Source of the DNA: a virus
Virus record (IMG/VR): IMGVR_UViG_3300034082_000731
Span: 1-20,267 of that record
Direction: 5' to 3' (one strand)
DNA: 20,267 nucleotides
A model generated the notes under the pieces. The model was not told the origin of the DNA, searched no databases, and saw only the letters and a program-made list of their open reading frames with translations. The position numbers and the translations under genes are program-made. Numbering within the stretch: position 1 is the first letter of the stretch; every line of letters starts with the position of its first letter. This document shows positions 2,158-19,262 of this stretch, in pieces.

Positions 2158-2165
2158 AAAAGTAT

Positions 2166-2360: not shown

Positions 2361-2361
2361 C

Positions 2362-2367
2362 AGGAGG
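2362..2367 (+). promoter_or_regulatory. Strong ribosome binding site of the tail tube gene
   Basis: AGGAGG, the perfect anti-16S core, lies 8 nt before the ATG at 2376. It is the best ribosome binding site in the window and fits the need for many copies of the tube subunit. Confidence 0.8.
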
Positions 2368-2375
2368 ATAGTAAA

Positions 2376-2954: not shown

Positions 2955-2979
2955 TTAACACCAAAAATTTGTACTAAGT

Positions 2980-3029: not shown

Positions 3030-3067
3030 ATATTCCCTACGATTATAACAAGGAGCAATATTTAAAC

Positions 3068-3376
3068 ATGACAACAAATAACGATTTGTTCAAGGGTACT
3101 GAGATTACATTTTCTGATGGAAAAAAGAGAGTAGTTAAGCCTTTGACGATTAAGCACCTCCGTGAGTTCATGAAGGTTGCAAACGAAATGAAGACTGATA
3201 ACGAAGCGGGTATGACTGATGATGATATTGATAAGATGATCGCAGCAGCTTCTATTGCTTTGCGTAAGGCAGATCCAGAGTTGGCAGCAAACCGTGATGC
3301 TCTTGAGGATATTCTTGACCTCAGAACATTCGGTGAAGTAATGGCTGCTGCAATGGGTAACGACCCAAACCAATAA
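3068..3376 (+). CDS. Tail assembly chaperone, short form (gpG-like)
   Basis: This 102-residue product is the unshifted form of the tail assembly chaperone, which keeps the tape measure protein soluble and recruits tube subunits but is absent from the finished virion. It has the layout of gpG-like proteins: a beta-strand start (EITFSDGKKRVVKPLTI) then a helical body (HLREFMKVANEMK, IDKMIAAASIALRK, LEDILDLRTFGEVMAAAMG). AAGGAG lies 12 nt before the ATG. Its last codons contain the in-frame slippery heptamer CCCAAAC, ending 3 nt before the stop codon. Location between tube and tape measure genes is diagnostic. Confidence 0.85.
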   Translation: MTTNNDLFKGTEITFSDGKKRVVKPLTIKHLREFMKVANEMKTDNEAGMTDDDIDKMIAAASIALRKADPELAANRDALEDILDLRTFGEVMAAAMGNDPNQ

Positions 3377-3699
3377 ACGGGGAAGGTGGAGGCGGTCAGC
3401 CTCTATCATGGAATGAGATCCCCCTTCTGAAGTATGAGTCAGAAATATTTGTTCAAGTCGGTGCATGGAGAAGTCTAGAGGAATTAGAGGAGTCTTTAAT
3501 TCTTCACGAAATGTTTCTTCTGTACCGAGCTTGTTCAAATGAATATAGTAAAGAAATTAAAGCCCTAGCTCTTTCCCAAGGAGCAGATGTTGACTTTGAT
3601 GAAGACTGGTATTCGCCAGAAGATAAAGTTCCAGATGAGCCGATGAGACCGTTTGAGGTCATGAGCTTCGGTATTCCATTAGGCTACACGCAGGAATAA
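3068..3699 (+). CDS. Tail assembly chaperone, -1 frameshift fusion (gpGT-like)
   Basis: A -1 slip at CCCAAAC (3364-3370) joins the first 101 codons to a second frame that is open from 3361 to the stop at 3697-3699, giving a fusion of about 210 residues. The added part starts PINGEGGGGQPLSWNEIPLL and continues with a helical, acidic segment (LEELEESLILHEMFLLYRA, then YSKEIKALALS). This second frame lacks any start codon with a ribosome binding site near its beginning; the first ATG is at 3511, well inside the open frame, which argues against independent translation. The two-product system is established for lambda G/GT and many siphoviruses: the T part binds tube subunits, the G part binds the tape measure. 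The fusion ratio cannot be read from sequence. Confidence 0.85.
3364..3407 (+). promoter_or_regulatory. Programmed -1 frameshift signal: slippery heptamer plus hairpin
   Basis: C CCA AAC at 3364-3370 is in the correct phase of the short frame and follows the X XXY YYZ rule, re-pairing as CCC AAA. The short-frame stop TAA follows at 3374-3376. Downstream, 3385-3393 pairs with 3399-3407 (GAGGC with GCCTC at the core, flanked by G-C, T-A and two G-T pairs), giving a 9-bp stem with a 5-nt loop, 14 nt from the heptamer. The heptamer call is firm; the hairpin as stimulator is inferred. Confidence 0.82.
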
Positions 3700-3703
3700 T
3701 GAT

Positions 3704-3731
3704 TGCTATTTACTGTATAAAATGGGATAAT
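3704..3731 (+). promoter_or_regulatory. Promoter-like sequence before the tape measure gene
   Basis: TTGCTA (3704-3709) and GATAAT (3726-3731) are separated by 16 nt, and TGG precedes the GATAAT hexamer as an extended -10. A second -10-like hexamer, TATATT (3733-3738), ends 9 nt before the tape measure ATG. The gene has no Shine-Dalgarno sequence, so a very short or absent leader is plausible. Predicted from sequence only. Confidence 0.45.
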
Positions 3732-3747
3732 CTATATTGGTACAAAT

Positions 3748-6700
3748 ATGTCTGATGTAGATCTAATAATTAGCGTACATACTACGGGTGTTAAGGATGT
3801 CGCTAATTTAAGCGCATCTGTACGAAATCTTGCTCTTAACCTAAAGGGTGTAACAGTGCCAATGAGGGCACTGGATAGCCATGCTAAAGCTGTCAATAAA
3901 GCATTAGGCATCACGAGCAAAGGTGTTAATCAACACGCTAATAGCTTAAAAGAACTAAAGAGAAATCAAGCTGCTCTTTCTGAAGAGAGCAAGCGCCTCC
4001 GCTCTAATATTCAGAACTATAACCTCGCAATATTAAAAGCTGGTGGTCCTACAACAAAACTTGGTAAAGAGCTAACTTTTACTCAAAATCAACTCAAGGC
4101 GTTTTCAACAACACTTCGTGGTTTGAGAATTAGGTCTTTTGGATCAGACCTCTCTAATATCTCGCTAAGACTTCAGAAGATGGGTAAGGATGCCCAATTC
4201 GTTGGTAGAAGCTTGATGATTAACCTTACAGCACCATTGTTGCTGTTTGCAAGAACTGGTCTACAAAGTTTAGTTAAAGTTGATGCTGCTCTTGTAAGAC
4301 TAACAAAGGTTCTTGAAGGCGTTGCAATGACAGCCGAACAGGCTGATAAGAAGCTTGGCAAGGGTCTTGGTGGTGCAGAGCGCCAGGCTGCTATTAACAA
4401 AATGGTTGATTCATTTAAGGCTCTTGATTTTGCGTTAACTGGTTTAAGTAATAAATTTGGTGTATCAAAAGATCTTGTAGTTGGTCTTGCAACAGATTTT
4501 GCTGAATTGGGAATTAGTGCTAATGAAAATATCACAGCACTTACAGAGCTAACACTTGTTACTGAAAAACTCGGCAACATGGATGCCGCTGGCGCACAAG
4601 ACCTTTCCCAGGCTTTGTATTTCAACTCGGTTAGAGCTCTTGAGGCATCTGGTGCTTTTGCTAAATTAACAAACGCAAGAGACCGTGAAGCAAGAGCAAT
4701 CGCAGCGGCTAAAACACAGCTCAATATGTTTAACAATATTGAAAATGTCACGGCGCTAACTCTAAAGGACTTGTCTGAGTCACTTCCAGAACTAGGTTCA
4801 ATGGCAGTGAGCTTTGGCTTGTCAATGACAGAGGCAGCAGCATTGCTTGCTCCTATGAAAGCTGCTGGTCTTGATGTTGGTGCTTCTGCAAACTCAATTA
4901 AAGTTTCATTGCAAAGAGCAATCAGTCCAACTAAGCAAAACACAGAATTGTTAGCAAGTCTTGCTAAACAATATGGAGTTGCATCTGATACTCAGAATAT
5001 TTTTAATAAAACAACAAAAACTGGGTTGACTGGTCTTCAGGGTATTGTTGATGTATTTATGAAGGTTGAGGCAAGCTCTGCTGGAGCAGAGGGTGCCCTC
5101 AAGCTTATGTCTGAAATCTTTGAGAAGCGTCAGGGACCAAGAATGTATATTGCCATTCAGCAGATGGGGCAATTTGATAGAGAACTCAATAAGGCTACAA
5201 GAAGCGCTAATACATCAGAAGGGATTCTTGCATCCGTAGCAGAAGGTGCTTTAAGTAAGTTTAATCAATTAAATAGTACAGCGCTTCCAGCAGCTATAAA
5301 TAACTTTAGTGACATTGGAATTATTGCAAGAATTGCAACCGCCCAGGCGGGACAAATGGTTGAAGGTTACGGAAAAGTTTCTGCTGCTGAAATTAAAACA
5401 GCTAAAGAAGTAAGAAAGGCTGTTGCCGATGTTGTCGTTCAGAAGAAGCAAAGTCAAGGAATTGACATCATTGGTGGAGCAAAAACAGAATCTGGTCGTG
5501 CAATGCTCGTTGAGCTTGCTGGTGCATCAAACGCTCAAGAAGTTGCTAATATGGAATTGGAGCAGTCACTCGGTTCGCTTGAAGTAGCTATTCAAAAAAT
5601 TAAAAACGCATTTAAGCTTTTTGCTGCGGATTTGATGAAGACAATTGGTCCAGCATTGAAGAGCATGGCTGATAAAATTCAGGTATTCTATGAAAAATGG
5701 CAATCACTGTCCGAGGCTACTAGACAAAATATATCCAAAGTAATTCTTGGGTTCCTTGCGTTCCTAGCTATTCTTGGTCCAGTAGTTCTTGCTATCGGTA
5801 CAATTCAAGCATCAATGGGTGTTTTGGGTAGAGCTCTTACTGGTTTACTTCCTAAGCTTGCAACAACAGAAGGTGGATTTGTTGGATTAGGAACATCTGC
5901 TTCCATAGCTAATGCAAAAGTAAAAGCCCTGTATGGCACTATTGTTGCAAAGTCATTGCAAAGTAAATTATTAGGTACTAAAACTGGATCACTTGCTGAC
6001 GCACAAAGCGCAGCACAAGCGGCGATGGGTAGTTTTGCAGCACCAAAATCAACTACTTTTACTCCAAAAACTGCAAAAGCATTGGCTCCATTACATCAAG
6101 CAAGAATAACTCAAGCTGAACAGCTTAGAGAGTTTTTGGCAAGAAACTCTGGGGCAACAAAAACTGATTTCTTAAAGAGTAGAGCTATTTCTAGCAAGAT
6201 TGCCTCTGGAGCCGCTCTAACTCCAGCACAATATGCGTATCAGCTTACAAATTCAGCAAAAGTAGCAAGTGTTCCAGGCGCTCTTGCTGCTGGTAAAGCA
6301 GCGGCTGTTACAAGAATTGATGATATTAATAGAAATATAAGAACTGGTGTAGCTAACAGAAACGCAACAGGTATAAGAGCTGCCTTTAGACAGAATCAAG
6401 TAGCGGCAAGAGACCCGTTCTATAAAGCCAAGGGTATTGCTACAGACAGAATGGGTACTCGCTTCTTTAGGGCTGGAGAAGAACTTCTTGATGACACTAC
6501 TCCTGGAACACCGAGCCGTACAAGAGGAGCGCTCTCAAGACTTAGTGGTGGAAGAATATCAGCAACAAGAAGACTTCTTGGAACAGCGGAAGATCAAGCA
6601 AACATTCTTGCTGGCGGTGGTGTTCAGGGCGCAAGGATGCAAACACAACTTCGTGCTCGTAAAGCTGTAGGTGGTATTAAAGACTTTGCAACAACGAGCA

Positions 6701-9700
6701 AGACAGCAAATCTTGGCAAAGGTTTTGTAGAAGCCTTAAGACCGATTAAACAATTCAAAGCTGGTGTTAGTGGTGCTAGGGGTGCCATGGCGGCTCTTGA
6801 AGCTCAGCAAAGAACACTTGGTCTAGCAGGTCCAGGCGCATTCAGAAAACTGGGTGTTGCTATTAAGGGATTTGTTACAAATGTAAAACTTGCAGATCTT
6901 GCAATGAAGATATTCAGAATGACAATGCTTGCTACTGGTATTGGAGCAATTGTTTTGGGCATCGGTGTAGCAGTAATGCTTGTTGTTAAAAACTTTGGAA
7001 TGTTCAAAGAAAAAGCGGCTGGACCACTGAGAGGTCTTGCATTTGCTTTCGGTGTCATCAAGAAAGCATTGATGGAAATAACAAGACCAATTCAGGACTT
7101 GTTCGCTCAGTTCGGTGGTGGAGCAAAGGGGACAGAAGGTTCTGTTAATGGACTTGTTACAATATTTAGACAATTCGTTAAGGTTGTGCAAATGGTTGCA
7201 CAAGCGTTTAAATCGCTTGTTGAAAATATTATCAAACCATATCTGTACGCAGTGGTCAATATTGTTATGGCTGTTGTTTCCATGTTCAAGGGAAATTGGG
7301 GTGACGCACTCAAGTTCTTAACAGCAGCCTTTGCCAGAGTCGCAGAAGTGCTTGTAAGTATATGGCAAGCAGTAATGAAAGTTCTTATCAAGGTTGCTGG
7401 CTTTATAGTAAAAGCAGTTATCACCATATTTGCTGGTTTAATGAAGGGTCTTGTAAAAGTTATTGCCCTAGGCGTTAAATTGATGCTTACATCACTCACA
7501 GCAATACCAAAAGCAGTTGCAAAGGGTTTTAGTTGGCTTAGCAAGATCCCAGGTATGGGATGGTTCAGTGCAATAAGTGATGGCATGAATGACACTATTG
7601 ACGGAATGTATGGGATGGTTGATGCTGGAGCCGATGCTGCTAGTGGTGCTATTGACGCTCTTGCTGATGGCGCTAAGGGATTGGTTGATGGCGGAGTAAA
7701 TCTTTATGGCAAGGCAATTGATGGAATAGCAAATACTATCAAGGGTGGTTTGAAGAAAGGCGCAGATCTTGGTGTTAAAGAAAGCACCCATTCTCTTCAG
7801 AAAGGGAAGAAGCCTCTCGTTGATGCTGGCACAGAGGCTGGTGAAGCCGCTGGTGAAGCTATTGCCAATTCTGCTGGTGATGGTTTTGAAGAGAATGATC
7901 CATCTGGAAAGATTGGTGAGAAGCTCAAGGAAGGTATTAAGAGCGCAGTTCAGGATCTGCAGAATTACATTGCTGGTGAATTAAGTAGTGCAATTGGCAA
8001 GTATGTTGACGCATCAATAAAGTCTCTTGAAAAGCAAAGAGATTCTGCGCTAAAAATATTTGATGTTCAGATCAAGACGCTTGGTAAGCTTGAAAAAGCC
8101 GAAGAGTCACTAACAAAGACAAAAGAGTTTGAAGCCAACAAGCGCAAGATGCTTGATGACAAAGCCCTTAGTGATGAGCAGTTCCGTAGAAACTATGCAT
8201 TGGCTGTTTATGAAGGTCGCACAGATGATGCAAGAATGCTCCAGCTTGAGCAGGTTTCTCAAACAAAATCGTTTAATCAAGATCTCAATTCGCTTGAATC
8301 AGGTCGTGCAAAAGACCTTGCAAAAGAAAATCTTGATGCGCTTAAAGATGCTATCAATGAAGCAAAAGATGCGGCTCAGAAATTCTTTGATGAATCAATT
8401 GTTAAGTTCCAAGAATCTATTGAGACTATCACTAAGTTCCCACCAGTAACGATTGAAGATTACAAGACTCAAATTGGAGAGCTTTACAACATCACAAATC
8501 AAACAGCAACTGATAACAGTGCTGCGTTTGAAAAGATGTTTACCAACTTTGCTACAACTATTAATACAAAGATGCCAAATGATGTTGTCGGTGCATTTAG
8601 TACAAATCTTGATGAACTGGTTCTGGTAGCAAAAGAGAAGTATGGTCTAGGTTCAGATACTAGCGAGAATACAGTTATTGGCGTAACAATCGGAATGCTT
8701 GCCAGTGTTGGCGGTGTGTTTGGTGATAAGAAACAAACAGTTATTGACTCGTTTGGTCTTGTTACAACTGGTCTAAAAGATAACTTTGCGGAATCAGCAA
8801 CAGCTATTGTTAAATCCGTAACTGATGATTTCTTGACACCATTTGCTGAGGCAACAACTAAGTTCAAAGATAACTGGGAAAAGGTTTATAAGCAAGCAAT
8901 TATTGATGGCAATAGAGCAATAACAGATGCTCTAAGAAATGATGTCTCTGTTAACAAAGAATTGTTTGAAGAGATGCGTGGATACATTGATGCAACAACT
9001 CTTAAATGGCTTGGTCTTAAAGCAGCAGCAGAAGCTGCTGGTGAGGCTCAAAAGGATGCTGCGGCTGGCGGTGGTGGAGGCGGTAGTGGAACAACAGGTA
9101 GCACATCTTCTGGAGCTGGTCTTAATGTTGGAAGGGCTGATGCTTTCACTTCTAATAACGCACTAAGAGCGGTTAAGGGTCTCGCTCCACTAACCTATCA
9201 GCAATTCACCGTAGGAACTGGTCTTTCAACGGCAGCTATTGCTGCAAAACCAATTAAGCCATCATTTATTCCAAACCCATCATTGAAGCCAGAGTCAAGA
9301 GCAAAGGGTGGAATTATTCCGTCACAGCGCCAAAATCAAAATAATGGATATCCAGAAGGATACATTCCAGCACCAACACAAGAAGGTGTACCAGCACTTC
9401 TTCATGGTGGAGAATACATTCTTAATGCGAAGGCAGTTCAAAGAATTGGTGTAGGTGCTTTGAATAAGATGAATAATAATCTTATTCCAAAATTCCTTAA
9501 GGGTGGTCAAGTACCAAAGAGGAGTGGGGCGATAACTCCAAAGAAGGGTGACGGAACATTAAACGGTCCCTACGGAACCGTTGTTAAGCCAGTTGTACCA
9601 GGAAATATAAATCTTAATAAACTACCTGTAGTAAAAAACAATATCAAAGGTGAAGGCGGGGTAAGCACAGTTAGGTCACTCAGTATTGGAACAGATCGTG

Positions 9701-11961
9701 GCACAATGCTTATTCCAACAGTTGTTAATGGAAAAATTATAAGTGATCAACAAGCAATAAAGTTTGCAATAAATAGCGGTAAGAATTTAGGAGTCTATAA
9801 AGATGATGCTACTGCTGAAATGGCTGCACAACTTATCCATATGTCGGAAGCAAATAGAGTTGGAAGAGCAAATCCTTCAAACACAAGAGGAAGCGCAGAC
9901 AGAATTGAGCCAAAGAGAAGTGCTAGCAGTAAGTTCCCTACCGCAGACACGGTAGATAGATATTTCACTAAAACTAAGCGTGAGATGCAAGCCAGCAGTC
10001 CTCTTGGTGCTGCTCGTTTAGCACAGCAAGACGCTGGTTATGTTCAGCCAAAATATGATTGGACAAACATGACTAAGTTTGGAATGGGTGGATTGACAAT
10101 TGGTGCCGAAATGCTTGGTACATATTTTGGTGGTCCAGTCGGTGGTGCGCTTGCAACTGCAGCTGCATACAACCTTACTAATAGACTTGGAAATCATCTT
10201 GCAAGCACAGGAGCAGCTCCTGGATTTAAGGGTGATACAACGCTAAAGGGTGCTGCGACAATGGGTGGATTTGCATTGGGTGGTGCTATTGCTGGTTCAG
10301 CACTGGGGCAAGGGCTTAGCGCAATAAGCGGTTTGATTGGTAGAAGGTCAGTTAATCAAGCAACATCAGCGGCACTTCAAGAAACAATTCAATCAGCAGT
10401 TCCTAAGCCTTCAATGGCTCTTGAGATATATCGTGGTCCATTGCAAGCTCAAACTATTACAAGAGAGGCATTGAGGGATGCTGATAAGATAATCACTGAG
10501 TCATTTGAAATGTATAAGATTGGAACAGAGAATGTTGGATTTGGTGTACCAATAAGCAGTGGTGGTTGGGATACAGCATTAAACTTTAAGAAAGTTGATT
10601 TAAATCCATATGACATAAGTGGATTGAGCCCAATGTCTGATGCTGGACAAAAAACAGCAAAAGATTGGATAGCTGCTCATATGGCATATAAATCAGAAAC
10701 AGGTAATACTAAGTCAAACTTTATTGATGCACTTCTGTATTCTGGAAAAAGAGGGGATATCAATTCACTTCTTAAGTTTAATCAGTACGCCCAGTCTGGA
10801 AGAAAACTCCTTAATGATGCAAAATTTGATAATTTTTACACAACTCCAATAGAGGATTTGCAGAGAAGTGTTCAAAGAGGTGGTTTAGATTCTCTTACTT
10901 TAGACGATTTATTCTTAGTTCACGAAACAAAATATGCTCCACCACTTGATAAATTTGGAAATATTTCTCTAAGACCAGCAGCTGATTATCAAACACTTTT
11001 TACTGATGAACTTGGATATACCAATGAGTATGTAAGAGATAGTATCCATATGGCAGTAAATCATCTCGTTACTGGTCATCAGCAAAGAGCCAATATTGAA
11101 GGTGCTCACATAATTGTTTCAAAACTTAAAGATGTAATAAATGCTAATCCAGGCGCATTAGATAACCTATACACAGTTGATTCCTGGCTTACTCCAAAAC
11201 CAGGACAGGGTTTAACAATTCCAAAGGGTTCATTTGAGCAGATATCCTCTGCTACTAATCCAGGGCAGCAGGTTCAAAATGCAATGGAAAAATTACTTGG
11301 ATCAAAAATAACAAGTAAGCATTTATTTAAAGGCGGGGATCATGGTTCTAACACAGAAGGTGCTGATCAGTTACTTAGAATACTTGGAAGGGATCTTGAT
11401 ACTGGATTTGGTCCTCATTTTGACTCACCTACTTATCATAACTCATTAGCGAGAAATATGAAAGAGGCAGGATGGAATGTTGGTCAAGCATTTAGTGAGC
11501 ATGGCATATCTACTTTAAGTGATAATGCAATTGCTCGTTTATTCAGTAGAAGTGGTATGCTTACTGGTGTTAGTAGGCGTTCAGATTGGATAAATCCATC
11601 AGTTATGAAAGCAGGTGGCTATCTCCCTGGATCTCCTTCAACAGCGATTCCTGCAATTCTTCATGGTGGTGAATATGTTGTTAATGCTGATGCTGTGAGA
11701 AACATGGGTGTAAGAACAATGCAAAGCATTAACCAATCAAAGTTTAGAGCACCTTCTGGAGTCCCAGCTTATGCAGGTGGTGGAGGAACAACTAGCGTAT
11801 CCACCGTGAATATCAATGTTGACACATTTGTTGGTGAAGAAGAATGGTTTAAGAGTATGATGAAGAGTTACAATGTTAATGTCCTTCCAAAACAACAGAA
11901 AGCCGCTGGTGTGGAGACAAGAACATTCACAAGCTACAACGGAATAAACCAGGGGTTATAA
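3748..11961 (+). CDS. Tape measure protein with large C-terminal extension
   Basis: This 2737-residue protein sets tail length and is ejected with the DNA. Residues about 150-500 form a TP901-type tape measure core (FGVSKDLVVGLATDFAELGI; later KRQGPRMYIAIQQMG). Hydrophobic segments lie near 662-685, 1052-1082 and 1160-1250, with an Arg/Ala-rich basic stretch between the first two. A helical, coiled-coil-like region spans about 1412-1575, and a poly-Gly linker lies near 1774. From about 1880 the protein changes character: a PALLHGGEY motif (His 1886), a TVRS/LIPTV-type domain (1952-2039), a Gly-rich hydrophobic stretch (2112-2191), an unrecognised globular region (about 2220-2615), and a second PAILHGGEY motif (His 2639). 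The start at 3748 lacks a Shine-Dalgarno sequence. At about 0.15 nm per residue the helical part up to 1880 would measure roughly 280 nm, an inference. It could be a tape measure carrying an ejected effector. Confidence 0.9.
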   Translation: MSDVDLIISVHTTGVKDVANLSASVRNLALNLKGVTVPMRALDSHAKAVNKALGITSKGVNQHANSLKELKRNQAALSEESKRLRSNIQNYNLAILKAGGPTTKLGKELTFTQNQLKAFSTTLRGLRIRSFGSDLSNISLRLQKMGKDAQFVGRSLMINLTAPLLLFARTGLQSLVKVDAALVRLTKVLEGVAMTAEQADKKLGKGLGGAERQAAINKMVDSFKALDFALTGLSNKFGVSKDLVVGLATDFAELGISANENITALTELTLVTEKLGNMDAAGAQDLSQALYFNSVRALEASGAFAKLTNARDREARAIAAAKTQLNMFNNIENVTALTLKDLSESLPELGSMAVSFGLSMTEAAALLAPMKAAGLDVGASANSIKVSLQRAISPTKQNTELLASLAKQYGVASDTQNIFNKTTKTGLTGLQGIVDVFMKVEASSAGAEGALKLMSEIFEKRQGPRMYIAIQQMGQFDRELNKATRSANTSEGILASVAEGALSKFNQLNSTALPAAINNFSDIGIIARIATAQAGQMVEGYGKVSAAEIKTAKEVRKAVADVVVQKKQSQGIDIIGGAKTESGRAMLVELAGASNAQEVANMELEQSLGSLEVAIQKIKNAFKLFAADLMKTIGPALKSMADKIQVFYEKWQSLSEATRQNISKVILGFLAFLAILGPVVLAIGTIQASMGVLGRALTGLLPKLATTEGGFVGLGTSASIANAKVKALYGTIVAKSLQSKLLGTKTGSLADAQSAAQAAMGSFAAPKSTTFTPKTAKALAPLHQARITQAEQLREFLARNSGATKTDFLKSRAISSKIASGAALTPAQYAYQLTNSAKVASVPGALAAGKAAAVTRIDDINRNIRTGVANRNATGIRAAFRQNQVAARDPFYKAKGIATDRMGTRFFRAGEELLDDTTPGTPSRTRGALSRLSGGRISATRRLLGTAEDQANILAGGGVQGARMQTQLRARKAVGGIKDFATTSKTANLGKGFVEALRPIKQFKAGVSGARGAMAALEAQQRTLGLAGPGAFRKLGVAIKGFVTNVKLADLAMKIFRMTMLATGIGAIVLGIGVAVMLVVKNFGMFKEKAAGPLRGLAFAFGVIKKALMEITRPIQDLFAQFGGGAKGTEGSVNGLVTIFRQFVKVVQMVAQAFKSLVENIIKPYLYAVVNIVMAVVSMFKGNWGDALKFLTAAFARVAEVLVSIWQAVMKVLIKVAGFIVKAVITIFAGLMKGLVKVIALGVKLMLTSLTAIPKAVAKGFSWLSKIPGMGWFSAISDGMNDTIDGMYGMVDAGADAASGAIDALADGAKGLVDGGVNLYGKAIDGIANTIKGGLKKGADLGVKESTHSLQKGKKPLVDAGTEAGEAAGEAIANSAGDGFEENDPSGKIGEKLKEGIKSAVQDLQNYIAGELSSAIGKYVDASIKSLEKQRDSALKIFDVQIKTLGKLEKAEESLTKTKEFEANKRKMLDDKALSDEQFRRNYALAVYEGRTDDARMLQLEQVSQTKSFNQDLNSLESGRAKDLAKENLDALKDAINEAKDAAQKFFDESIVKFQESIETITKFPPVTIEDYKTQIGELYNITNQTATDNSAAFEKMFTNFATTINTKMPNDVVGAFSTNLDELVLVAKEKYGLGSDTSENTVIGVTIGMLASVGGVFGDKKQTVIDSFGLVTTGLKDNFAESATAIVKSVTDDFLTPFAEATTKFKDNWEKVYKQAIIDGNRAITDALRNDVSVNKELFEEMRGYIDATTLKWLGLKAAAEAAGEAQKDAAAGGGGGGSGTTGSTSSGAGLNVGRADAFTSNNALRAVKGLAPLTYQQFTVGTGLSTAAIAAKPIKPSFIPNPSLKPESRAKGGIIPSQRQNQNNGYPEGYIPAPTQEGVPALLHGGEYILNAKAVQRIGVGALNKMNNNLIPKFLKGGQVPKRSGAITPKKGDGTLNGPYGTVVKPVVPGNINLNKLPVVKNNIKGEGGVSTVRSLSIGTDRGTMLIPTVVNGKIISDQQAIKFAINSGKNLGVYKDDATAEMAAQLIHMSEANRVGRANPSNTRGSADRIEPKRSASSKFPTADTVDRYFTKTKREMQASSPLGAARLAQQDAGYVQPKYDWTNMTKFGMGGLTIGAEMLGTYFGGPVGGALATAAAYNLTNRLGNHLASTGAAPGFKGDTTLKGAATMGGFALGGAIAGSALGQGLSAISGLIGRRSVNQATSAALQETIQSAVPKPSMALEIYRGPLQAQTITREALRDADKIITESFEMYKIGTENVGFGVPISSGGWDTALNFKKVDLNPYDISGLSPMSDAGQKTAKDWIAAHMAYKSETGNTKSNFIDALLYSGKRGDINSLLKFNQYAQSGRKLLNDAKFDNFYTTPIEDLQRSVQRGGLDSLTLDDLFLVHETKYAPPLDKFGNISLRPAADYQTLFTDELGYTNEYVRDSIHMAVNHLVTGHQQRANIEGAHIIVSKLKDVINANPGALDNLYTVDSWLTPKPGQGLTIPKGSFEQISSATNPGQQVQNAMEKLLGSKITSKHLFKGGDHGSNTEGADQLLRILGRDLDTGFGPHFDSPTYHNSLARNMKEAGWNVGQAFSEHGISTLSDNAIARLFSRSGMLTGVSRRSDWINPSVMKAGGYLPGSPSTAIPAILHGGEYVVNADAVRNMGVRTMQSINQSKFRAPSGVPAYAGGGGTTSVSTVNINVDTFVGEEEWFKSMMKSYNVNVLPKQQKAAGVETRTFTSYNGINQGL
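9388..9450 (+). repeat. PALLHGGEY motif, first copy in the tape measure
   Basis: Residues around 1881-1900 read VPALLHGGEYILNAKAVQRI. The motif, a short strand, HGGE, then N.AV.R.G, is frequent near the C-terminus of tape measure proteins, particularly from actinobacterial phages as I recall. A second copy occurs 753 residues later. Confidence 0.7.
9601..9864 (+). other. TVRS/LIPTV-type domain inside the tape measure
   Basis: Residues 1952-2039 contain GNINLNKLPVVKNN, STVRSLSIGTDRG, LIPTVVNGKIISDQQAIKF and NSGKNLGVY followed by an A..AAQLIH helix. This ordered set resembles a small domain I have seen in many phage virion and internal proteins (NRPVVKN, TVRS, LIPTV, GKHLG, A..LH), whose function is not established to my knowledge. 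The resemblance is from memory, not a search. Confidence 0.55.
10417..11592 (+). other. Unrecognised globular region in the tape measure C-terminus
   Basis: Residues about 2224-2615 lack the helical, Ala/Gly-rich composition of the tape. They are rich in aromatic residues, His, Asp, Asn and Pro. Visible motifs are LEIYRGP (from 2224), LVHETKYAPP (2390-2399), GNISLRPAADY, SIHMAVNHLVTGHQQR (2432-2447), LYTVDSWLTPKPGQGL, and KGGDHGSNTEGADQLL. The density of H, N and D in short motifs looks like an enzyme, but I cannot name a family. The YRG plus later SSGGW combination faintly recalls ADP-ribosyltransferases, without a visible E.E motif. Confidence 0.5.
11641..11712 (+). repeat. PAILHGGEY motif, second copy in the tape measure
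   Basis: Residues around 2634-2653 read IPAILHGGEYVVNADAVRNM, clearly related to the first copy (PA.LHGGEY, N..AV.). The two copies bracket the cargo-like region, suggesting insertion or duplication. Confidence 0.7.
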
Positions 11962-12384: not shown

Positions 12385-13449
12385 ATGTCTGATAGTTTTT
12401 ATTCATTTAGTGAACCACTTAATCGTGGTATAGATTTCTACCAAGCGGATGCTGCGGATGTCACGATTGACATCAATATCAGTTCGTCACTTACAATATC
12501 GTCTTATCAAATAAGATTTGCAAATATTGTAATTGCATCAAACTCTGATGTCGTATCTAATTCATATAAAGTCGCATACGCAGCAGCTAATCTTTCTGTT
12601 GATGGCGCAACAGTTATTGTCGCAACAGAAAGACAGGATGGCGATGTTGTAATTTCAGCAGAAGTCCTTGTTGAAACAAATATTACAAAGATTGCCTATG
12701 CGAGTGCATCAATTTCTGCTAGCTCTGAGTCTAGTATAAGCGGGACAAAGATTTCAATATCTTCATGCTCAATGAGCATAGATTCGTCTGTATCAGTGTC
12801 CATGATAAAAATATCGCATGGCGTTTCGCAGATAGATATTCTTTCATCAATGCTTTCAAGCGGAACACGAATTGTCTTTGGTCGTACAAATCTATCTGGT
12901 GAGGTTAGTCTATTTGTAGCTGGAAAGATAGTTCTTGCAACAATTAGAATTAACATATTAAATAACTCTAATATACGAGCAGAAGCAATTAGATTTAGCA
13001 ATAACATTACTGCTGACTCTTCATTAATCAGAGCGCTACTCATACTTGATGGAAAACCATTAACCAACCAAAGTCGCACACTTGATTCATCCGTTGCTCC
13101 GTTATACATTGAGAACACAAATTGGTCAGGAGATTCATCTCGTTATTACAAGAACAATGCTGCTGGTAGTGCGGCGAAGAGGACATTTAATATAAATTGG
13201 AGTTTTATCCCTAATTATAGTGATAGAACAGTAGATTATAAAGAGGGAAGAAATTATATAAAGTCATTATCAATGGATGCTGATACTCATACGCTTACAA
13301 TTATAAATCAAGATGAAGACGGGGTAACTCCATACACAGAGGAGCAAATCACTGTATTTATTTCAAACTTCTCTGAGAACTTAATTAGAAGAGATCTTGT
13401 AGATGATGTATACTATTTTAGCTGCGCAATGACGCTGGAAGAGGTATAA
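12385..13449 (+). CDS. Tail tip protein, paralogue B with 20-residue repeats (354 aa)
   Basis: The gene starts 3 nt after paralogue A. Residues about 217-354 match almost the whole length of paralogue A (ILDGKPLTNQSRTLDSS; WSFIPNYSDRTVDYKEGRNY; ENLIRRDLVDDVYYF). In front sits a Ser/Ile/Val/Ala-rich region (about 26-216) made of roughly ten degenerate repeats of 19-21 residues, each starting near K/R-I/V with hydrophobic alternation, such as KIAYASASISASSESSISGT and KISISSCSMSIDSSVSVSMI. That pattern suggests a beta-solenoid-like or extended stalk. The likely role is a tail tip component with an outward-facing stalk. The ribosome binding site is weak (AAGAG). Confidence 0.6.
   Translation: MSDSFYSFSEPLNRGIDFYQADAADVTIDINISSSLTISSYQIRFANIVIASNSDVVSNSYKVAYAAANLSVDGATVIVATERQDGDVVISAEVLVETNITKIAYASASISASSESSISGTKISISSCSMSIDSSVSVSMIKISHGVSQIDILSSMLSSGTRIVFGRTNLSGEVSLFVAGKIVLATIRINILNNSNIRAEAIRFSNNITADSSLIRALLILDGKPLTNQSRTLDSSVAPLYIENTNWSGDSSRYYKNNAAGSAAKRTFNINWSFIPNYSDRTVDYKEGRNYIKSLSMDADTHTLTIINQDEDGVTPYTEEQITVFISNFSENLIRRDLVDDVYYFSCAMTLEEV
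12460..13023 (+). repeat. Array of about ten degenerate 19-21 residue repeats
   Basis: Repeat starts at the protein level include QIRFANIVIA, KVAYAAANLS, KIAYASASIS, KISISSCSMS, KISHGVSQID, RIVFGRTNLS and KIVLATIRIN, each followed by a Ser/Val-rich second strand. The repeats are diverged at DNA level. Period is about 60 nt. Confidence 0.6.
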
Positions 13450-13452
13450 ATG
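13441..13452 (+). promoter_or_regulatory. Stop-start junction with embedded ribosome binding site
   Basis: GAGGTATAAATG encodes the last Glu-Val-stop of one gene and the ATG of the next; GAGGT pairs with the 16S 3' end. The identical 12 bases recur at 19254-19265. Spacing is short (4 nt), and translational coupling is likely. Confidence 0.6.
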
Positions 13453-16400
13453 TTAACATCTGGACTATACGGTAAAGATCTATCTAATTCATTTAATTCA
13501 GCTATAGTAGCACCAGCTCAGAAAATTAAGCCTAAGGTTATTATTAAATGGCTGGACAGTCGTCACTTAGACAATCTTGTTGTAACAACAAATGATGCGC
13601 CAGCTGTTAATTCGTATCCTTCAAGAGGATTTTTCTTCCCTGCATCAGAAGCCTTTAATGGCATTAGGAGACAGTCATTTACATGGGCTGTTGCTGGAGC
13701 CCTGGATGCTGATGGCGATGTGATAAGGGCGGATGGTTCTTGGTATGCAATGCCTTCGTTAACAACAAATGATCTATCTAATACCCAGATGGGTAGTAGT
13801 TTAGAGTTTGGATGGTGGTCTAATAGTGTAAGTAATTCAAATACTCATGCTACATATGACGGGTATGGTTTTGTTACAAGTCCATATATACAAGCTACAT
13901 TCACAACAAGAAAAGTAAATAAGATTCGTATAATTACATCGGAGTTTTATGGACAAATCTCTACATACCTACTGCAAGCATATGACGGGTCATTGAATCT
14001 CATTCTTAATGAGACTGGTACTATCCCTGATGATGGTTACTATAGAGATCACATTCTCTCAGAGGCATTGTCTACAAATAACATTTCAAAAATAAAAGTT
14101 ACTGTGTATACAACTAAAAATCCAGGAGACTATGCTAGGATTCAGGAAATTGTTCCTATTTACGAGGAAGATATCAGTGAATATGTAATGTCATATTCAG
14201 TAAATAGAACAAGGGATATACACTCAACTAGCTTGCCAATCGGTGGTTCTGAAACTGCATCAGTTGATTTAAAACTTGATAATACTGGAAAACTGTTTAA
14301 TATTTTTAATAGTGCATCTACATATGGTAAATACATGGCTAAAGACCTTGAGGTTGAAATATACACTGGGTGGAGAATTAAGAAACCTAGTAGTGATTAT
14401 CTAAATAGCTCTGTATTAACAACACAACTCCAGGCAAATATTTCAAACTCATCTTCAACATTTTCTGTGCTTGATAAATCATCCCTTCCGTCTGGCGGTG
14501 CTGGTAATTACTTTACTGTGGTTATTGATAAGGGGACACAATCCGAGGAAGTAATCTTGTGCTCATCAGTTGATTCTTCAAGTGTTGTGACGGTGTTAGA
14601 AAGAGGTTACGGAGATACTATCGCTAAATCACATACTGTCGGTGCGACAATATCGTTTGATATTTATGAATATGTAAAGAACGGTACTTTTTATGTAGAT
14701 GAATGGACAGTCGGAACTGATATGACTGTTGGTGCAAATCTCCAGGACTGGAGCAAATTTCTTTCTGAAAGGTCAATTAATTATGGTTTCTTTTTACAGA
14801 ACGCCTATGTTGGTGATGCTGTAAAGAATCTTTTGATGAGAGCAAATTTTCCAAGCGCTGATATTAAAAAGTTAAATACTTATAAACAGGGTGCAAAAGA
14901 TCGTGAGGCTGTGTCTCTGTATTCGTTCAACGAACAAACAATTGATAGAAGTGGAAATAGCATTATTCCATCAACTGGATTGAGGGCTCGTTTTTGGGGA
15001 ATGCCAACGAATCAAAAAAATATCCAGTCAGTTAAAGACATTGTTGCTGATGCTATTGATAAAGAACTATCACCAATGGATAAAGCCTTGGGAGAAAAAA
15101 GCTTTGTATCCCCAACACTAACATTACTGTCAAAGAGTATATCAACATCAAATACTAGTGCTCTAGACATATCAAATTATTCTTTTACGGGTAATGATTC
15201 GGCTGTATATTCCGAGTATTTCAATGGGGTGTTTGATGGTTACTACATCCCCACCGACTCTGGTCTACAGAAATTAATTGTTTTTATTTCATATGGCGGT
15301 GTTAGATTATATCTTGATGATATTCTAATCCTTGATAAATACCAGACAACCACTAGCTCAACTAGGTATGAATCAAGCATGGTGAATCTATCAGCTGGTG
15401 TTCCAAGAAAAATAAGAATAGAGTTCTTTCACTCGTTTAATAATTCTGGATCAGCATCATTTAGCATATCGCTATACAAAGCGCTGAGCGGCGGTTCGGA
15501 TGCAATTGTATCAGCAGCAGAATGTTGCACGATTGTTCCATTGGATGCGATTGGAAGCAAGAACTCCTCATCTACATGGTCAACTGCGGATTCATACAAT
15601 CACAGAAACAATGGCGTATACATTAACAATCCAAAGCTAAGTCAACCGACTGGTCTAGTATCAGACCAAACGGATAAGTCGGTACTACTTGAAAACAATG
15701 CGTATATTAGAATTCCATATACGGCAACGAATGATTTGTCAACAAAAAATGAATGGACAATGGAATTTTTTGGGAAGTTCCATGCTCAGAATGTAGGTGC
15801 TGCCCCAGCCCCGATTACTGTTACGAATAGCGGTGCATCTAGCTATTTAATAAACGGAGTTTCTAATGCAACAATTTCCATGGTTCGTGGGGGGCTCTAC
15901 ACACTTCAGGTCAATGCAACTGGTCATCCATTTTGGATTCAAACATCAGCTGGTGCTTATAATGCAGCAAATGTTGTAGCTTCAGGAATTATAAACAATG
16001 GATCTGCAGTTGGAACTATCACATTTCAAGTTCCTGCTAATGCCCCAAGCACCTTGTATTACGCTTGCCAACATCACGCTGCGATGGCTGGAACAATAAC
16101 GATCACAGGGGCAGCAAACCCTTATGAATCAATTTTAGGTGATGGAGAGTACATAAGTAATTGGAGTAATTCAATTGCGACATCTGGTTTTGAGTTTTTT
16201 AACAACTCCGTTTCTCATGGATTTAGATTAAAAACGGTATTAGCTAATAGCGCCGTTGTAACAGAAACAGTATCGTCAAATACAGCACTTTCTAACTCAT
16301 CTTCATATCACATAGTGAGTGTGTATGATGGCTCGGATTTAAAGTATTATGTAAATGGTGTTTTGCAAGACACTGAGGTGATAGAGGGAACTCCAGTAAG

Positions 16401-17694
16401 TTGGGCATCAAAAGATACCACAATTGGGGGTAGAGGAGCAAGCTTTGCGTCTGGAGTAGAGGTTACGCCGCCCACTATCAGAAGCTTCTATGTAGATGAG
16501 TTTGCAGTGTATGACAAAGCACTCACTTCTGAGAATATCAAGGATAGATACATTGAGTCTGCAATGCAACCGCTTACTCAGTTTGCATTTTTGTACGGCA
16601 ATGAAACATCAATTCGTGAAATTATGAATGACATTACATTTGCGGATATGGGTCGTATTTATATAGATGAAAATGATAAAGCTAAATATGAACACTTCTA
16701 TAGGTTCTTTGAACCATCAATTGATCAGCATGCAAATGTTCAGTCATATTTTAGTGACTCAACTAATATTACAAATAGCAATTATAATGTTTCGCTTCAA
16801 TGTAATAAGGTTGTTATACCTATCTCATCAATTCAGACATCTACAAACGCTGTTCAGTCTTTATGGATAGCACCAGATGGTTCAAGCTTGGCTACAACAA
16901 AGCTGACTTCCAATCTGGCATCAAATGCAAATGTTGCATATGTATCAACAACGCTGGATCCTGTTTATGCAGATACTGGGTATATCAAGATAAATAGTGA
17001 GATTATTAAATATATTTCAAAAACAGCTACATCATTTAACGGCTTAGAGAGAGCGCAGTATCAAACAACTGCTGCCGCTCATGTTGCTGATGATAAGGTT
17101 CGTGAGTCTCGCTACTATGATATTAAGTTTGACAAGGCTCCAGCCTATAACATAAAAGCACCATTCATCAGTGCGATTTTGTTTGAAAACCCAAAGAAGG
17201 TTGAAATCACAAAGTATTTACCATATCCATACGGTGCTGAGATGATTCTATCTGCAAGTGAGGATTCTGAAGTTGGCGGGCTCGTATTTCTACAAGGAAC
17301 TGACCCTTTAACAAAGTATCCATACGCAACTGTATTGAGCGGAACAGCGGTGATGATGAGTGAGCAGAATGTTCAGGTTAAGGAACAGTCAGCTTCTTTG
17401 GCTGACAGTATTAAGAAGTACGGTGTTAAGGATGTAACAATTCAAAGCCCGTTTATTACGGATTCAGTTCATGCTAAAAAACTTGCTGATTTTATTATTG
17501 AAAAAACACAAATACCTGTTCCAATCATTAATCTTGATGTAACAGCAATGCCAAAAATCCAATTGGGTGATAGAATTAGAGTAACAAATCTGAGTGCTTT
17601 GGATATTACAAACACTGATTATTGGGTTATTTCTCATAATACAACCATTGGGGATAATGTATCTCAAAATCTGGTGTTAAGGAAGGTTTCATAA
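13450..17694 (+). CDS. Tail hub-like protein with PA14, LamG and cupredoxin domains (1414 aa)
   Basis: The ends look like a tail hub / minor tail protein: an N-terminal region with a beta-sandwich (about 100-230), the segment EDISEYVMSYSVNRTRDIHS (from about 238) and a C-terminal strand-rich part with MPKIQLGDRIRVTNL near 1376. In the middle are inserted binding modules: PA14-like (about 510-700; GLRARFWG, YFNGVFDGYYIP, GGVRLYLDDILI), then LamG-like (about 715-1040; YIRIPYTATNDL, EWTMEFFGKF, YHIVSVYDG, LKYYVNGVL, YVDEFAVYDKAL) interrupted by a cupredoxin at about 783-890. Two similar mini-domains (318-408 and about 1145-1222) flank these insertions. PA14 and LamG modules commonly bind carbohydrates, so a role in host surface attachment is likely. 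The ribosome binding site is GAGGT; the last base of the stop (17694) is the first of the next ATG. Confidence 0.75.
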   Translation: MLTSGLYGKDLSNSFNSAIVAPAQKIKPKVIIKWLDSRHLDNLVVTTNDAPAVNSYPSRGFFFPASEAFNGIRRQSFTWAVAGALDADGDVIRADGSWYAMPSLTTNDLSNTQMGSSLEFGWWSNSVSNSNTHATYDGYGFVTSPYIQATFTTRKVNKIRIITSEFYGQISTYLLQAYDGSLNLILNETGTIPDDGYYRDHILSEALSTNNISKIKVTVYTTKNPGDYARIQEIVPIYEEDISEYVMSYSVNRTRDIHSTSLPIGGSETASVDLKLDNTGKLFNIFNSASTYGKYMAKDLEVEIYTGWRIKKPSSDYLNSSVLTTQLQANISNSSSTFSVLDKSSLPSGGAGNYFTVVIDKGTQSEEVILCSSVDSSSVVTVLERGYGDTIAKSHTVGATISFDIYEYVKNGTFYVDEWTVGTDMTVGANLQDWSKFLSERSINYGFFLQNAYVGDAVKNLLMRANFPSADIKKLNTYKQGAKDREAVSLYSFNEQTIDRSGNSIIPSTGLRARFWGMPTNQKNIQSVKDIVADAIDKELSPMDKALGEKSFVSPTLTLLSKSISTSNTSALDISNYSFTGNDSAVYSEYFNGVFDGYYIPTDSGLQKLIVFISYGGVRLYLDDILILDKYQTTTSSTRYESSMVNLSAGVPRKIRIEFFHSFNNSGSASFSISLYKALSGGSDAIVSAAECCTIVPLDAIGSKNSSSTWSTADSYNHRNNGVYINNPKLSQPTGLVSDQTDKSVLLENNAYIRIPYTATNDLSTKNEWTMEFFGKFHAQNVGAAPAPITVTNSGASSYLINGVSNATISMVRGGLYTLQVNATGHPFWIQTSAGAYNAANVVASGIINNGSAVGTITFQVPANAPSTLYYACQHHAAMAGTITITGAANPYESILGDGEYISNWSNSIATSGFEFFNNSVSHGFRLKTVLANSAVVTETVSSNTALSNSSSYHIVSVYDGSDLKYYVNGVLQDTEVIEGTPVSWASKDTTIGGRGASFASGVEVTPPTIRSFYVDEFAVYDKALTSENIKDRYIESAMQPLTQFAFLYGNETSIREIMNDITFADMGRIYIDENDKAKYEHFYRFFEPSIDQHANVQSYFSDSTNITNSNYNVSLQCNKVVIPISSIQTSTNAVQSLWIAPDGSSLATTKLTSNLASNANVAYVSTTLDPVYADTGYIKINSEIIKYISKTATSFNGLERAQYQTTAAAHVADDKVRESRYYDIKFDKAPAYNIKAPFISAILFENPKKVEITKYLPYPYGAEMILSASEDSEVGGLVFLQGTDPLTKYPYATVLSGTAVMMSEQNVQVKEQSASLADSIKKYGVKDVTIQSPFITDSVHAKKLADFIIEKTQIPVPIINLDVTAMPKIQLGDRIRVTNLSALDITNTDYWVISHNTTIGDNVSQNLVLRKVS
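14410..14676 (+). other. Hub mini-domain, first copy
   Basis: Residues about 321-409 show strands with a late sequence SEEVILCSSVD, then VLERGYGDTIAKSHTVGATI. The pattern (sE.I..., then L.RG.y.T....H..G/D..V) is repeated at 16900-17115. Confidence 0.5.
14977..15552 (+). other. PA14-like domain in the hub protein
   Basis: Residues about 510-701 begin GLRARFWG, typical of PA14 starts (GL.a.yw), followed after a helical spacer by YSEYFNGVFDGYYIP, LIVFISYGGVRLYLDD, and GVPRKIRIEFFHSFNNSGSA. These match the core strands of PA14/GLEYA modules, many of which bind sugars. Calcium-site residues cannot be assigned by eye. Confidence 0.6.
15600..16569 (+). other. LamG / concanavalin-like domain, interrupted
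   Basis: The first part (about residues 717-782) has VLLENNAYIRIPYT and EWTMEFFGKF; the second (about 890-1040) has YHIVSVYDGSDLKYYVNG, DTTIGGRG and SFYVDEFAVYDKALTSENI. Together they give the expected strand order of a LamG jelly roll, split by the cupredoxin insertion. Confidence 0.65.
15796..16119 (+). other. Cupredoxin domain nested in the LamG domain
   Basis: Residues about 783-890 contain ATISMVRGGLYTLQVNATGH, PFWIQTSAG, GTITFQVPANAPSTLYYACQ and HHAAMAGTITI. His 826, Cys 873, His 876 and Met 879 fit the type 1 copper ligand order, with Cys-x2-His-x2-Met spacing as known for amicyanin. Strand pattern and the aromatic YYxC are typical of small cupredoxins. Copper binding is inferred. Confidence 0.72.
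16900..17115 (+). other. Hub mini-domain, second copy
   Basis: Residues about 1151-1222 read YIKINSEIIKYISKTATSFN then GLERAQYQTTAAAHVADDKV, matching the first copy at 14410-14676 in the order sEiI, L.R..y.T....H...D..V. Confidence 0.5.
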
Positions 17695-19262
17695 TGCCTA
17701 GTGAGAATACGATATACTTCTTCCCTGGTCGTGGTGGGCACTCTCATGATGGGAATAATTCAAGCCTAATTGATACCACTCAGTATTCTTTGTTTGATTT
17801 CTCATGGGGTTTGCTTGGGGATCCAGATAGAAGGTCAACACAGTCTCGTAATTACGATAGCTTTAAAAACTTTGTTGTAGAGACTGTCAACTCATCACTA
17901 ATTGAGCCAGCTGGTCTTGTCCTTCAGCCTGGAATTGTGAACGGATCTGCTCATATTATTTCAAGATCAATTGAGGCTAATTCAATTGCGGCAAATGCAT
18001 TGACCGCAAATGAAATTGCTGCGAACACAATTACTTCAAATGAGCTTACAGCTAACTTTGTTCTTGTAAACACCATCATCGCCAGTAACAATTTTAATGG
18101 CACATATAATGCAAATACTTTTGCGTTTAGTAATGCGGGAACTACTGGCTGGGCTATTACAAGCTCAGGAGATGCTGTGTTTACAAATGGACAATTCAGA
18201 GGAAACCTCTTTGTTGGTGCTAACGATTATTGGTATTCAAATGGCGCTTTTGCTCTTGGTGGGAATACTGGTATTTATAGAAATGTTGGCGAGGGAATTA
18301 CTCTTGGAGCAAATGTAACAATACTTGGTGGAGTGACAGCAACCGCTGTATCAACCCCAGGAATTGATATCTTGTCTGATGGGACAATATCTAGCGCAAA
18401 CTTTAATGTATCTGCTAGTGGAGATATCACAGCAACTAATGCGGATATTTCTGGAACAATAAATGCAACATCTGGAAGCATTGCTGGTTGGTCAATAAGC
18501 ACCGACACAATCTCAGCCGACAGTGGGAATATTAGTTTGTACCAAGAAGCTGGGTACGGAGCAGTGATTGCTGGTACTGGCGCTGGAACACAAATTATCT
18601 TGAATTCCGAAGCGCAGTTACATGCAGAGTTTGGCGGTATAGACACTGATATCAATTTCCAAACAGATTCTGCGTATGTTTTCAGGATAACCGATGGTAG
18701 TCAGCTTGCAAGAATTTCTCCATCTTTGATTTCTTTCGTTAGCGGCGTTAATTTTTCAGTGCTATCATATGATAGTATCTATACAACTGGTGAAGCTGGA
18801 ATGAGCACTGGTCTCATTGGTGGTATCGGCATCACATATCCTGGATGTACAACTGGTCCAGGTACTGCTAATTACATGGGGCTTGTTTGGAATAACCCAG
18901 ATATACGAGGCACAGTTGATAATGTCGTATCAACTGTTCTTGGAACAGTATCGGATGTAAGATCAAAGTCGTATATTTTAGATGCAGAAGATACTTGGCT
19001 TAATAAATTATATGATTCATTAAGAGTCGTGTCTTTTAACCCAGTAGATTTATTAGATGAAGAAAATCTGCATTTATACCCAAGAAGACTTGGTTTAATA
19101 GCGCAGGAGCTTAATGAAATTCTGCCTGATTTGGTGGTTTCGGCAAACCCGTATGATGAAGAAGCTTTCCTTTCAGTTAATTATCTTGGACTAGTTCCTT
19201 ATTTAATACAGGCGGTTCAGGATCTAAACAATCGTGTAAAAGAATTGGAAAATGAGGTATAA
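17694..19262 (+). CDS. Tail fibre with C-terminal S74 intramolecular chaperone (522 aa)
   Basis: The N-terminus has FFPGRGGHSHDGNNSSLIDT, a motif seen at the start of phage fibre-like proteins and probably the virion anchor. Next come six tandem five-residue units (residues 92-121, SIEAN, SIAAN, ALTAN, EIAAN, TITSN, ELTAN). The middle is beta-rich and Gly/Ser/Asn/Thr-rich with two GW.I units (GWAITSSGD, GWSISTDTI), common in fibres. From residue 420 the C-terminus matches the Peptidase S74 chaperone: SDVRSKSYILDAEDTW, LGLIAQELNEILPDLV, SVNYLGLVPYLIQAV and a final coiled-coil (NNRVKELENEV). In this family the Ser of SD.R.K, with the Lys, performs self-cleavage after trimer folding. The ATG shares one base with the preceding stop; AAGGAAGG-type sequence lies upstream. 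Confidence 0.85.
   Translation: MPSENTIYFFPGRGGHSHDGNNSSLIDTTQYSLFDFSWGLLGDPDRRSTQSRNYDSFKNFVVETVNSSLIEPAGLVLQPGIVNGSAHIISRSIEANSIAANALTANEIAANTITSNELTANFVLVNTIIASNNFNGTYNANTFAFSNAGTTGWAITSSGDAVFTNGQFRGNLFVGANDYWYSNGAFALGGNTGIYRNVGEGITLGANVTILGGVTATAVSTPGIDILSDGTISSANFNVSASGDITATNADISGTINATSGSIAGWSISTDTISADSGNISLYQEAGYGAVIAGTGAGTQIILNSEAQLHAEFGGIDTDINFQTDSAYVFRITDGSQLARISPSLISFVSGVNFSVLSYDSIYTTGEAGMSTGLIGGIGITYPGCTTGPGTANYMGLVWNNPDIRGTVDNVVSTVLGTVSDVRSKSYILDAEDTWLNKLYDSLRVVSFNPVDLLDEENLHLYPRRLGLIAQELNEILPDLVVSANPYDEEAFLSVNYLGLVPYLIQAVQDLNNRVKELENEV
17967..18056 (+). repeat. Six tandem 5-residue repeats (x-I/L-x-A-N)
   Basis: Units SIEAN, SIAAN, ALTAN, EIAAN, TITSN and ELTAN run without interruption at residues 92-121. 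The phase differs from the classical A(D/N)Lxx pentapeptide repeat. It probably forms a narrow beta-stacked or coiled trimer shaft. Confidence 0.75.
18951..19259 (+). other. Peptidase S74 self-cleaving chaperone domain
   Basis: The domain runs from Ser 420 to the C-terminus (103 residues), a normal length. The predicted cut is just before Ser 420 in SDVRSK. IAQE, Y..L.P.LI.A and the terminal coiled coil are all present, so it looks intact. Confidence 0.85.

Follow-up and report, generated by a model that had tools for sequence, protein, structure and literature searches.

An optional cupredoxin domain with a predicted type 1 copper site in the LamG loop of a phage tail hub protein

Known type 1 copper sites act as electron carriers or oxidase centres, and second-shell hydrogen bonds have roles around the type 1 sites of plastocyanin and amicyanin. 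Among phages, Ig-like domains on structural proteins (Hoc and others) and iron in tails have both been subjects of classic work. The Ig-like domains are promiscuous, being small beta-sandwiches that are optional and occur in unrelated phage proteins (PMC10385173, in the part of the paper available). A metal-binding element on a phage tail adhesin has also been proposed, in the form of iron-binding HxH domains of tail fibres for which an iron Trojan-horse hypothesis was advanced (PMC11705849, in the section available). Cyanophages carry a separate plastocyanin gene, petE (excerpt of PMC2984593); excerpts of further papers treat petE as a metabolic gene (PMC10436341), enter it in a table of Up/Down changes (PMC8875764), deal with a viral nitrite reductase (PMC8115048), or give Borg gene lists (PMC9605863), all of them topics other than a structural cupredoxin. 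In a literature search that was judged by titles and the starts of abstracts, and whose scope took in a minority of subscription journals, we found no description of a cupredoxin in a phage structural protein among the papers listed.

Here, we studied a domain of this kind in IMG/VR virus record IMGVR_UViG_3300034082_000731, analyzed over a stretch of 20,267 nucleotides (the window). The domain has in common with the type 1 cupredoxins plastocyanin, amicyanin, rusticyanin, and auracyanin the predicted fold, the order of the ligands, and their positions relative to the strands and the last loop, and it has the same Cys-x2-His-x2-Met loop length as amicyanin. It differs in being too divergent for the Pfam PF00127 and NCBIfam amicyanin models, in having Pro rather than Asn after the first His ligand, and in lying inside phage structural genes, whereas those proteins are free electron carriers. 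Like the Ig-like domains it is promiscuous and optional in its placement (its membership of the virion being by annotation and context), but it has a cupredoxin fold with a metal ligand set and is found in-frame inside proteins as well as at their ends. With the HxH iron domains it shares the idea of a metal-binding element on a tail adhesin; however, the ligands here are those of a copper-type site, H...C-x2-H-x2-M, and the hosts of the window phage are likely monoderm.

The sequence family of the domain is already present in PHROGs, as the end of phrog_677 (connector; E 1.4e-21, profile positions 309-409 of 412), where it carries no cupredoxin label. Connector is the annotation of five of 15 cyanophage copies in their own records and of two more in the RefSeq copy of the same phage. 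In four of these five connectors the domain is at the very C-terminus, with that of S-N03 running on beyond it, whereas in the window it is nested in the LamG domain of a tail hub; and the connectors belong to cyanophages, whereas the group of the window phage has relatives with WhiB. What we rate as new is the use of a known fold as an exchangeable phage tail module.

The hub gene and its split LamG domain

A preliminary description of the window had placed a cupredoxin domain at nucleotides 15796-16119, an interval that on translation is exactly residues 783-890 of a 1414-residue open reading frame. By homology, the cupredoxin core takes up residues 786-888 (nucleotides 15805-16113). The features of the gene are as follows.

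13450..17694, plus strand: tail hub or tail-tip (Tal-like) gene, 1414 amino acids, with a C-terminal phrog_10359 match
15193..15474, plus strand: PA14 domain of the hub, residues 582-675 (Pfam PF07691, E 2.2e-7)
15541..15792, plus strand: N-terminal half of the LamG (Laminin_G_3) jelly roll, residues 698-781, by homology to the N-terminal half of insert-less hubs
15641..16540, plus strand: block exchanged relative to a close relative, locus L072 (about 900 bases, LamG halves and insert), by sliding identity of the window with L072
15796..16119, plus strand: nested cupredoxin domain, residues 783-890, by fold prediction, fold searches, and profile alignment
15925..15927, plus strand: His826, predicted first type 1 copper ligand, aligned with plastocyanin His37
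16066..16068, plus strand: Cys873, predicted thiolate ligand, aligned with plastocyanin Cys84
16075..16077, plus strand: His876, predicted second His ligand, aligned with plastocyanin His87
16084..16086, plus strand: Met879, predicted axial ligand, aligned with plastocyanin Met92
16123..16572, plus strand: C-terminal half of the LamG jelly roll, residues 892-1041 (Pfam PF13385)
17098..17688, plus strand: C-terminal hub segment with a minor tail protein profile, residues 1217-1413 (phrog_10359)

That the carrier of the domain is a tail gene agrees with the match of phrog_10359, a minor tail protein family, at its C-terminal end (E 1.4e-18); the label "hub" is our reading of this minor tail protein by its position. 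Upstream of the gene lies an open reading frame of 2737 amino acids (3748-11961), which is taken for the tape measure from its length and position. The 354-residue protein encoded directly before the hub (12385-13449) is rich in short stretches of alternating Ile and Ser, and had no Pfam match up to E 1 and no PHROG match up to E 0.1.

The claim that the domain interrupts a LamG jelly roll held when hubs without the insert were compared. Laminin_G_3 runs unbroken across the site in all four insert-less relatives scanned, covering profile positions 3-151, 12-151, 15-150, and 10-150 (L071, L061, L092, and L101, respectively), whereas in the window hub the match covers positions 45-151 only (PF13385 on the region of the C-terminal half, E 2.1e-10, at residues 913-1031); scanned alone, the N-terminal half of the window hub had no Pfam match. 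A search with the C-terminal LamG half returned 52 loci, of which five have the hub of the window and 47 are others, non-identical to it. None of these 47 carries the cupredoxin domain, and in 46 of them both LamG halves are found, separated by zero to five residues, the remaining locus (L100) starting inside the region. The insertion site is a short loop that reads KFH-NG-SF in most rows. An end-to-end fusion was considered in place of nesting and rejected, on the grounds of the natural alleles that do without the domain, the unbroken Laminin_G_3 matches, and the clean insertion seen between two further hubs, L355 and L358 (below).

Modeled as one piece, the whole nested region reached a pLDDT of only 64.4, in part because 22 of the 55 rows of the input alignment were misplaced. 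The 50 PDB matches listed for this model were to the lectin-like jelly rolls of clostridial neurotoxins, none exceeding a TM of 0.41 or having an rmsd below 9 Å, and our reading of the model is that these represent a generic jelly-roll match and nothing more.

Cupredoxin fold and predicted copper ligands

The cupredoxin fold claimed in the preliminary description was recovered by structure prediction and by fold searches of the PDB. The AlphaFold2 model of the domain, for which a 38-row alignment served as input, has a mean pLDDT of 88.7 and a pTM of 0.81, and its strand list shows the first His between two strands and the Cys closing a strand, with the loop ahead of the final strand holding both the second His and the Met. 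Foldseek ranked rusticyanin first (E 1.2e-5), followed by a multicopper oxidase, auracyanin, and plastocyanin, and VIA-align found X-ray chains of rusticyanin at Z 10.3-11.5, with 99 residues superposed at 2.0-2.1 Å. Copper proteins with cupredoxin domains are thus the top matches of both searches, as for a cupredoxin Greek key; an immunoglobulin fold is not indicated, the matches listed in the fold searches being filled by copper proteins of cupredoxin fold. Sequence profiles are less responsive: Pfam PF00127 (Copper-bind) does not match the window domain and matches five of 38 domain rows weakly (best E 0.0018), and the NCBIfam amicyanin model TIGR02657 has no match in the window and weak ones in 11 of the 38 rows (best E 0.019). 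The likeness to amicyanin drawn in the preliminary description is therefore retained for the length of the ligand loop only, since the closest folds are those of rusticyanin and other copper proteins and the amicyanin model finds no match; amicyanin proper is rejected.

Other fold relatives came from BFVD and include cyanophage tail fibres. In the same database, beta-sandwich proteins from genomes named as Pithovirus and Marseillevirus (A0A481Z6J5, A0A481YVH3, and others) resemble the fold of the domain.

Translation bears out His826, Cys873, His876, and Met879 and their Cys-x2-His-x2-Met spacing, and the comparison with plastocyanin places all four on the four ligands of that protein (probability 95.1, E 3e-8, for a single comparison), the reversed control of the same profile alignment giving probability 0.3 and E 0.21. 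The query profile comprised 72 phage and cellular copies, 60 of which were used by the program, and the cupredoxin profile comprised 24 rows (poplar plastocyanin, amicyanin, and 22 rows extracted from other loci) picked by eye from 49, the 25 dropped being mostly multicopper oxidase-like and several of them cupredoxin-like or near-copies. Against a profile of two sequences, hhalign covered the last loop alone (probability 45.8).

In the alignment of 72 rows the ligand positions are among the most conserved of 111 columns. Cys is invariant (72/72, conservation rank 2), as is the second His (72/72, rank 3); the first ligand is His in 71 rows (rank 5), and the axial ligand is Met in 70 and Gln in two (rank 8). 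Homologues lacking these residues had been named as evidence that would tell against the copper site, and the check went in its favor: the full H, C, H, M set is present in 105 of 111 distinct domain sequences, which are a biased collection because the search patterns included the Cys and both His ligands. All four residues are also kept in 15 of 15 cyanophage copies, which were found by tblastn without ligand patterns and chosen by hand for spread from 275 records. A type 1 ligand set at homologous positions is thus upheld by the profile alignment and by both counts, and a chance match of the four residues is rejected by their conservation and by their alignment on the plastocyanin ligands. 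We regard the domain as almost certainly a cupredoxin with a type 1 ligand set.

Among the exceptions, Gln replaces the axial Met in L110 and in the second copy of L031, and Asn replaces the first His in L114, a cellular copy. Two partial matches, L053 and L054, are without the C-H-M loop, and the latter is also without the region of the first His.

Beyond the ligands themselves, 71 of 72 rows have His-Pro at the first ligand, an arrangement that resembles that at the type 1 His of laccases, and Pro at Cys+2 occurs in none of the 72. With no backbone NH after the first ligand and no Pro at Cys+2, the hydrogen-bond pattern would be swapped relative to plastocyanin and amicyanin, and, on the boldest reading considered below, the copper site would therefore be of its own spectroscopic kind.

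Domains of cupredoxin fold that hold no metal do exist, ephrins among them, so the ligand-like residues could in principle have been kept for packing only, in a degenerate fold. The changed ligands of L114, L110, and L031 and the missing loop of L053 and L054 would suit such an account, but the four residues that align with the plastocyanin ligands are conserved jointly, and we consider a metal-free domain highly improbable. We infer copper occupancy of the site, as we do the function of the domain, and think that copper is probably bound in the virion.

Spread, exchange, and hosts

As a correction to the preliminary description, the domain is not peculiar to this phage and occurs in many phage contigs. 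An alignment search of viral contigs confirmed at least 544 stretches with the domain among the 600 candidate matches listed. Collagen-like repeats, called by a pattern of our own, stand next to the domain in 49 of 106 distinct viral open reading frames (a set that includes fragments and near-copies), elsewhere in eight, and are lacking in 49. Of eight domain-carrying proteins scanned with Pfam, four have Collagen and one has Mtd_N, a tropism-determinant domain. The domain is also nested within a small phage protein of about 118 amino acids that is unrelated to the hub, in 11 of 62 distinct open reading frames; these were partly found through the domain, so that the proportion is no frequency, and L290, one of the 51 scored as negative, is truncated by its contig end within the domain.

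Several other observations concern the proteins that carry the domain. The small protein (L139, L144, L137, and relatives) has a distant match to phrog_1276, and the contig of L006 carries both a small-protein copy and a hub copy. In L188, a protein of 1358 amino acids (101-4174) has the domain near its N-terminus, by eye within another split jelly roll; the protein matched no Pfam family at E 0.01.

In GenBank phages, the window domain as query matched 275 of 50,697 records and another copy as query matched 357, counts that include many near-identical isolates. By the first word of their names, nearly all records with the domain are cyanophages, the remainder being a few marine viruses and single Pelagibacter, Actinomycetia, and uncultured entries. 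Cyanophages carry the domain in tail fibre genes and in gp9, where it lies at or near the C-terminus.

The domain seems rare in bacteria. A scan of a bacterial genome collection with two patterns gave 18 loci with the domain, 11 of them flavobacterial by title, and among genomes of one order, that of a flavobacterial genome carrying it, it was found in one of 40, the starting genome itself. Of three domain-carrying flavobacterial genomes scanned with Pfam Copper-bind, namely the genomes of L109, L111, and L123, none had a match. Seven of the flavobacterial proteins (L109, L111, L116-L119, and L125) are by eye lipoproteins with repeats, which we take to be CHRD-like, and have the cupredoxin domain at the C-terminus; L122, also among the flavobacterial loci, looks like a phage gene. 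The domain of these lipoproteins is homologous to that of the window and has the same ligands, but the proteins are cellular and, by eye, secreted or membrane-anchored, unlike the phage hub.

Close relatives permit the presence and absence of the domain to be compared directly. Relative to L072, which lacks the insert, identity within the exchanged block falls to 57-77% per 60-base bin outside the insert and the junction bins. The nearest three bins upstream of 15641 are at 98-100% (83-100% in the bins listed further upstream), and identity downstream of 16540 is 92% and then 98-100%. The difference between L355 and L358, in contrast, is one clean insertion (1421 versus 1309 codons, a difference of 112), outside of which identity is 88-100% in 90-base bins. 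In a tree of 38 hubs, seven with the domain and 31 without, at least three changes of presence are required even if only well-supported branches are trusted; the tree was a quick one built without the domain, it drew a long-branch warning, retained the exchanged LamG columns, and does not distinguish gain from loss.

Pairwise identities vary among the hubs that carry the domain. The window and L006 are 82% alike in the domain and 74% in the insert with linkers, compared with 44-45% in the N- and C-terminal parts of the hub, and for L006 and L355 the corresponding values are 72% for the insert with linkers and 44-47% for the hub ends. For the window and L355 transfer is not indicated, as identity is lower in the insert (65%) than in the hub ends (75%). 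Taken as sequence comparisons, these patterns indicate transfer of the domain, alone or within a short segment, among at least some of the hub lineages, and they suggest an optional, exchangeable module that close phages have or lack as a whole.

The fibre gene beside the hub varies too. The region 17694-19262 of the window encodes a tail fibre that ends in an S74 endosialidase-chaperone. Compared with L072, the alignment extends to 18370 and resumes at 19450, no match longer than 100 bases being listed for the stretch in between, whereas compared with L066 the whole of 17694-19262 is matched at 89%.

Regarding the host, all 137 GenBank matches of the tail-tube protein are, by name, phages of Streptomyces, Rhodococcus, or Microbacterium, and of the 87 matches of the hub, 69 are Streptomyces phages while the other 18, which presumably arise through the cupredoxin domain, are cyanophage or marine records. 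WhiB, an actinobacterial regulator, is encoded on all six contigs of insert-less hub relatives searched, and on seven of the eight contigs given, the 34.6-kb contig of L006 having none. From the tail-tube and hub matches and the WhiB genes of its relatives, the window phage most likely infects an actinobacterium. A terminase search returned nothing in three contigs. The GC content of the window is 35-44%, and a freshwater origin is our guess.

Possible roles at the tail tip

The preliminary description had offered three roles for the domain, namely to stabilize the tip, to sense the cell surface, or to bind a receptor, and among these receptor or surface binding fits the context best. We lean toward an optional cupredoxin module in the LamG loop of the tail hub that has a type 1 copper site and serves for adhesion or display; for the adhesion or display role taken by itself, we put the chances slightly above even. 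The virion would display the domain at the tail tip, where the cassette of LamG and cupredoxin would touch the host envelope. A bound metal may lock the ligand loop and hold the conserved metal-side face in shape, and this face or the loops around it could add a second cell-surface contact beside the LamG lectin. Phages would exchange the domain like other parts that determine tropism. The LamG domain that differs together with the insert, the contexts with Mtd_N and collagen, and the absence from sister phages argue for this reading, whereas the occurrence of the domain in bacterial proteins without a known role counts against it.

The same breadth of contexts (the gp9 C-terminus or its vicinity, positions beside collagen-like stretches, and the inside of two unrelated proteins) would also be expected of a filler, that is, a stable beta-sandwich spacer that needs metal only to fold and that adds bulk or reach, or masks the hub, with no specific partner; that close relatives do without the domain favors this account as well. 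However, a pure spacer would be expected to lose its ligands often, and such strict conservation speaks against mere filler, while the fact that the surrounding LamG domain differs together with the domain in the L072 comparison points to a tropism part. We therefore hold a structural filler to be unlikely.

A further set of explanations takes the metal site as functional in its own right. The domain might exchange electrons with a host surface protein, remove copper or reactive oxygen at the tip, or offer copper to a host uptake protein, the last being a copper analogue of the iron Trojan-horse idea. Such roles would find use for the complete, predicted set of type 1 ligands and for the His-Pro after the first ligand, and would suit GenBank carriers that are mostly cyanophages and marine viruses; for iron, such a role of a phage tail fibre has been put forward (PMC11705849, in the part available). 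On the other hand, the hosts differ widely, being cyanobacteria by record and actinobacteria by the WhiB genes of the relatives of the window phage, and no partner is known. Actinobacteria also lack the outer-membrane receptors on which the iron idea draws. Redox or copper handling thus appears very unlikely to us, and because of the WhiB genes on the contigs of the insert-less hub relatives, an outer-membrane Trojan horse in particular is unlikely for the window phage.

The boldest reading, and a quite unlikely one in our estimation, is that some phages have a functional blue copper site on the tail tip and use it in adsorption, either by docking on a redox or copper-handling protein of the host surface or through a grip that switches with the copper or redox state. 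If this were true, the infection of some planktonic bacteria would depend on copper.

The annotation of phrog_677 and of the C-termini of cyanophage gp9 proteins can be improved at once, and the ligand changes of L110, L114, and L031 supply natural variants for spectroscopy. If copper is bound, phage particles in natural waters would also hold a small pool of protein-bound copper. Viral contigs contain at least 544 stretches of the domain, nearly all of the copies examined for ligands (111 distinct sequences and 15 from cyanophages) retain the type 1 set, and closely related phages have or lack the domain as a unit; these natural plus and minus alleles make the role of a metal domain on the tail tip directly testable.
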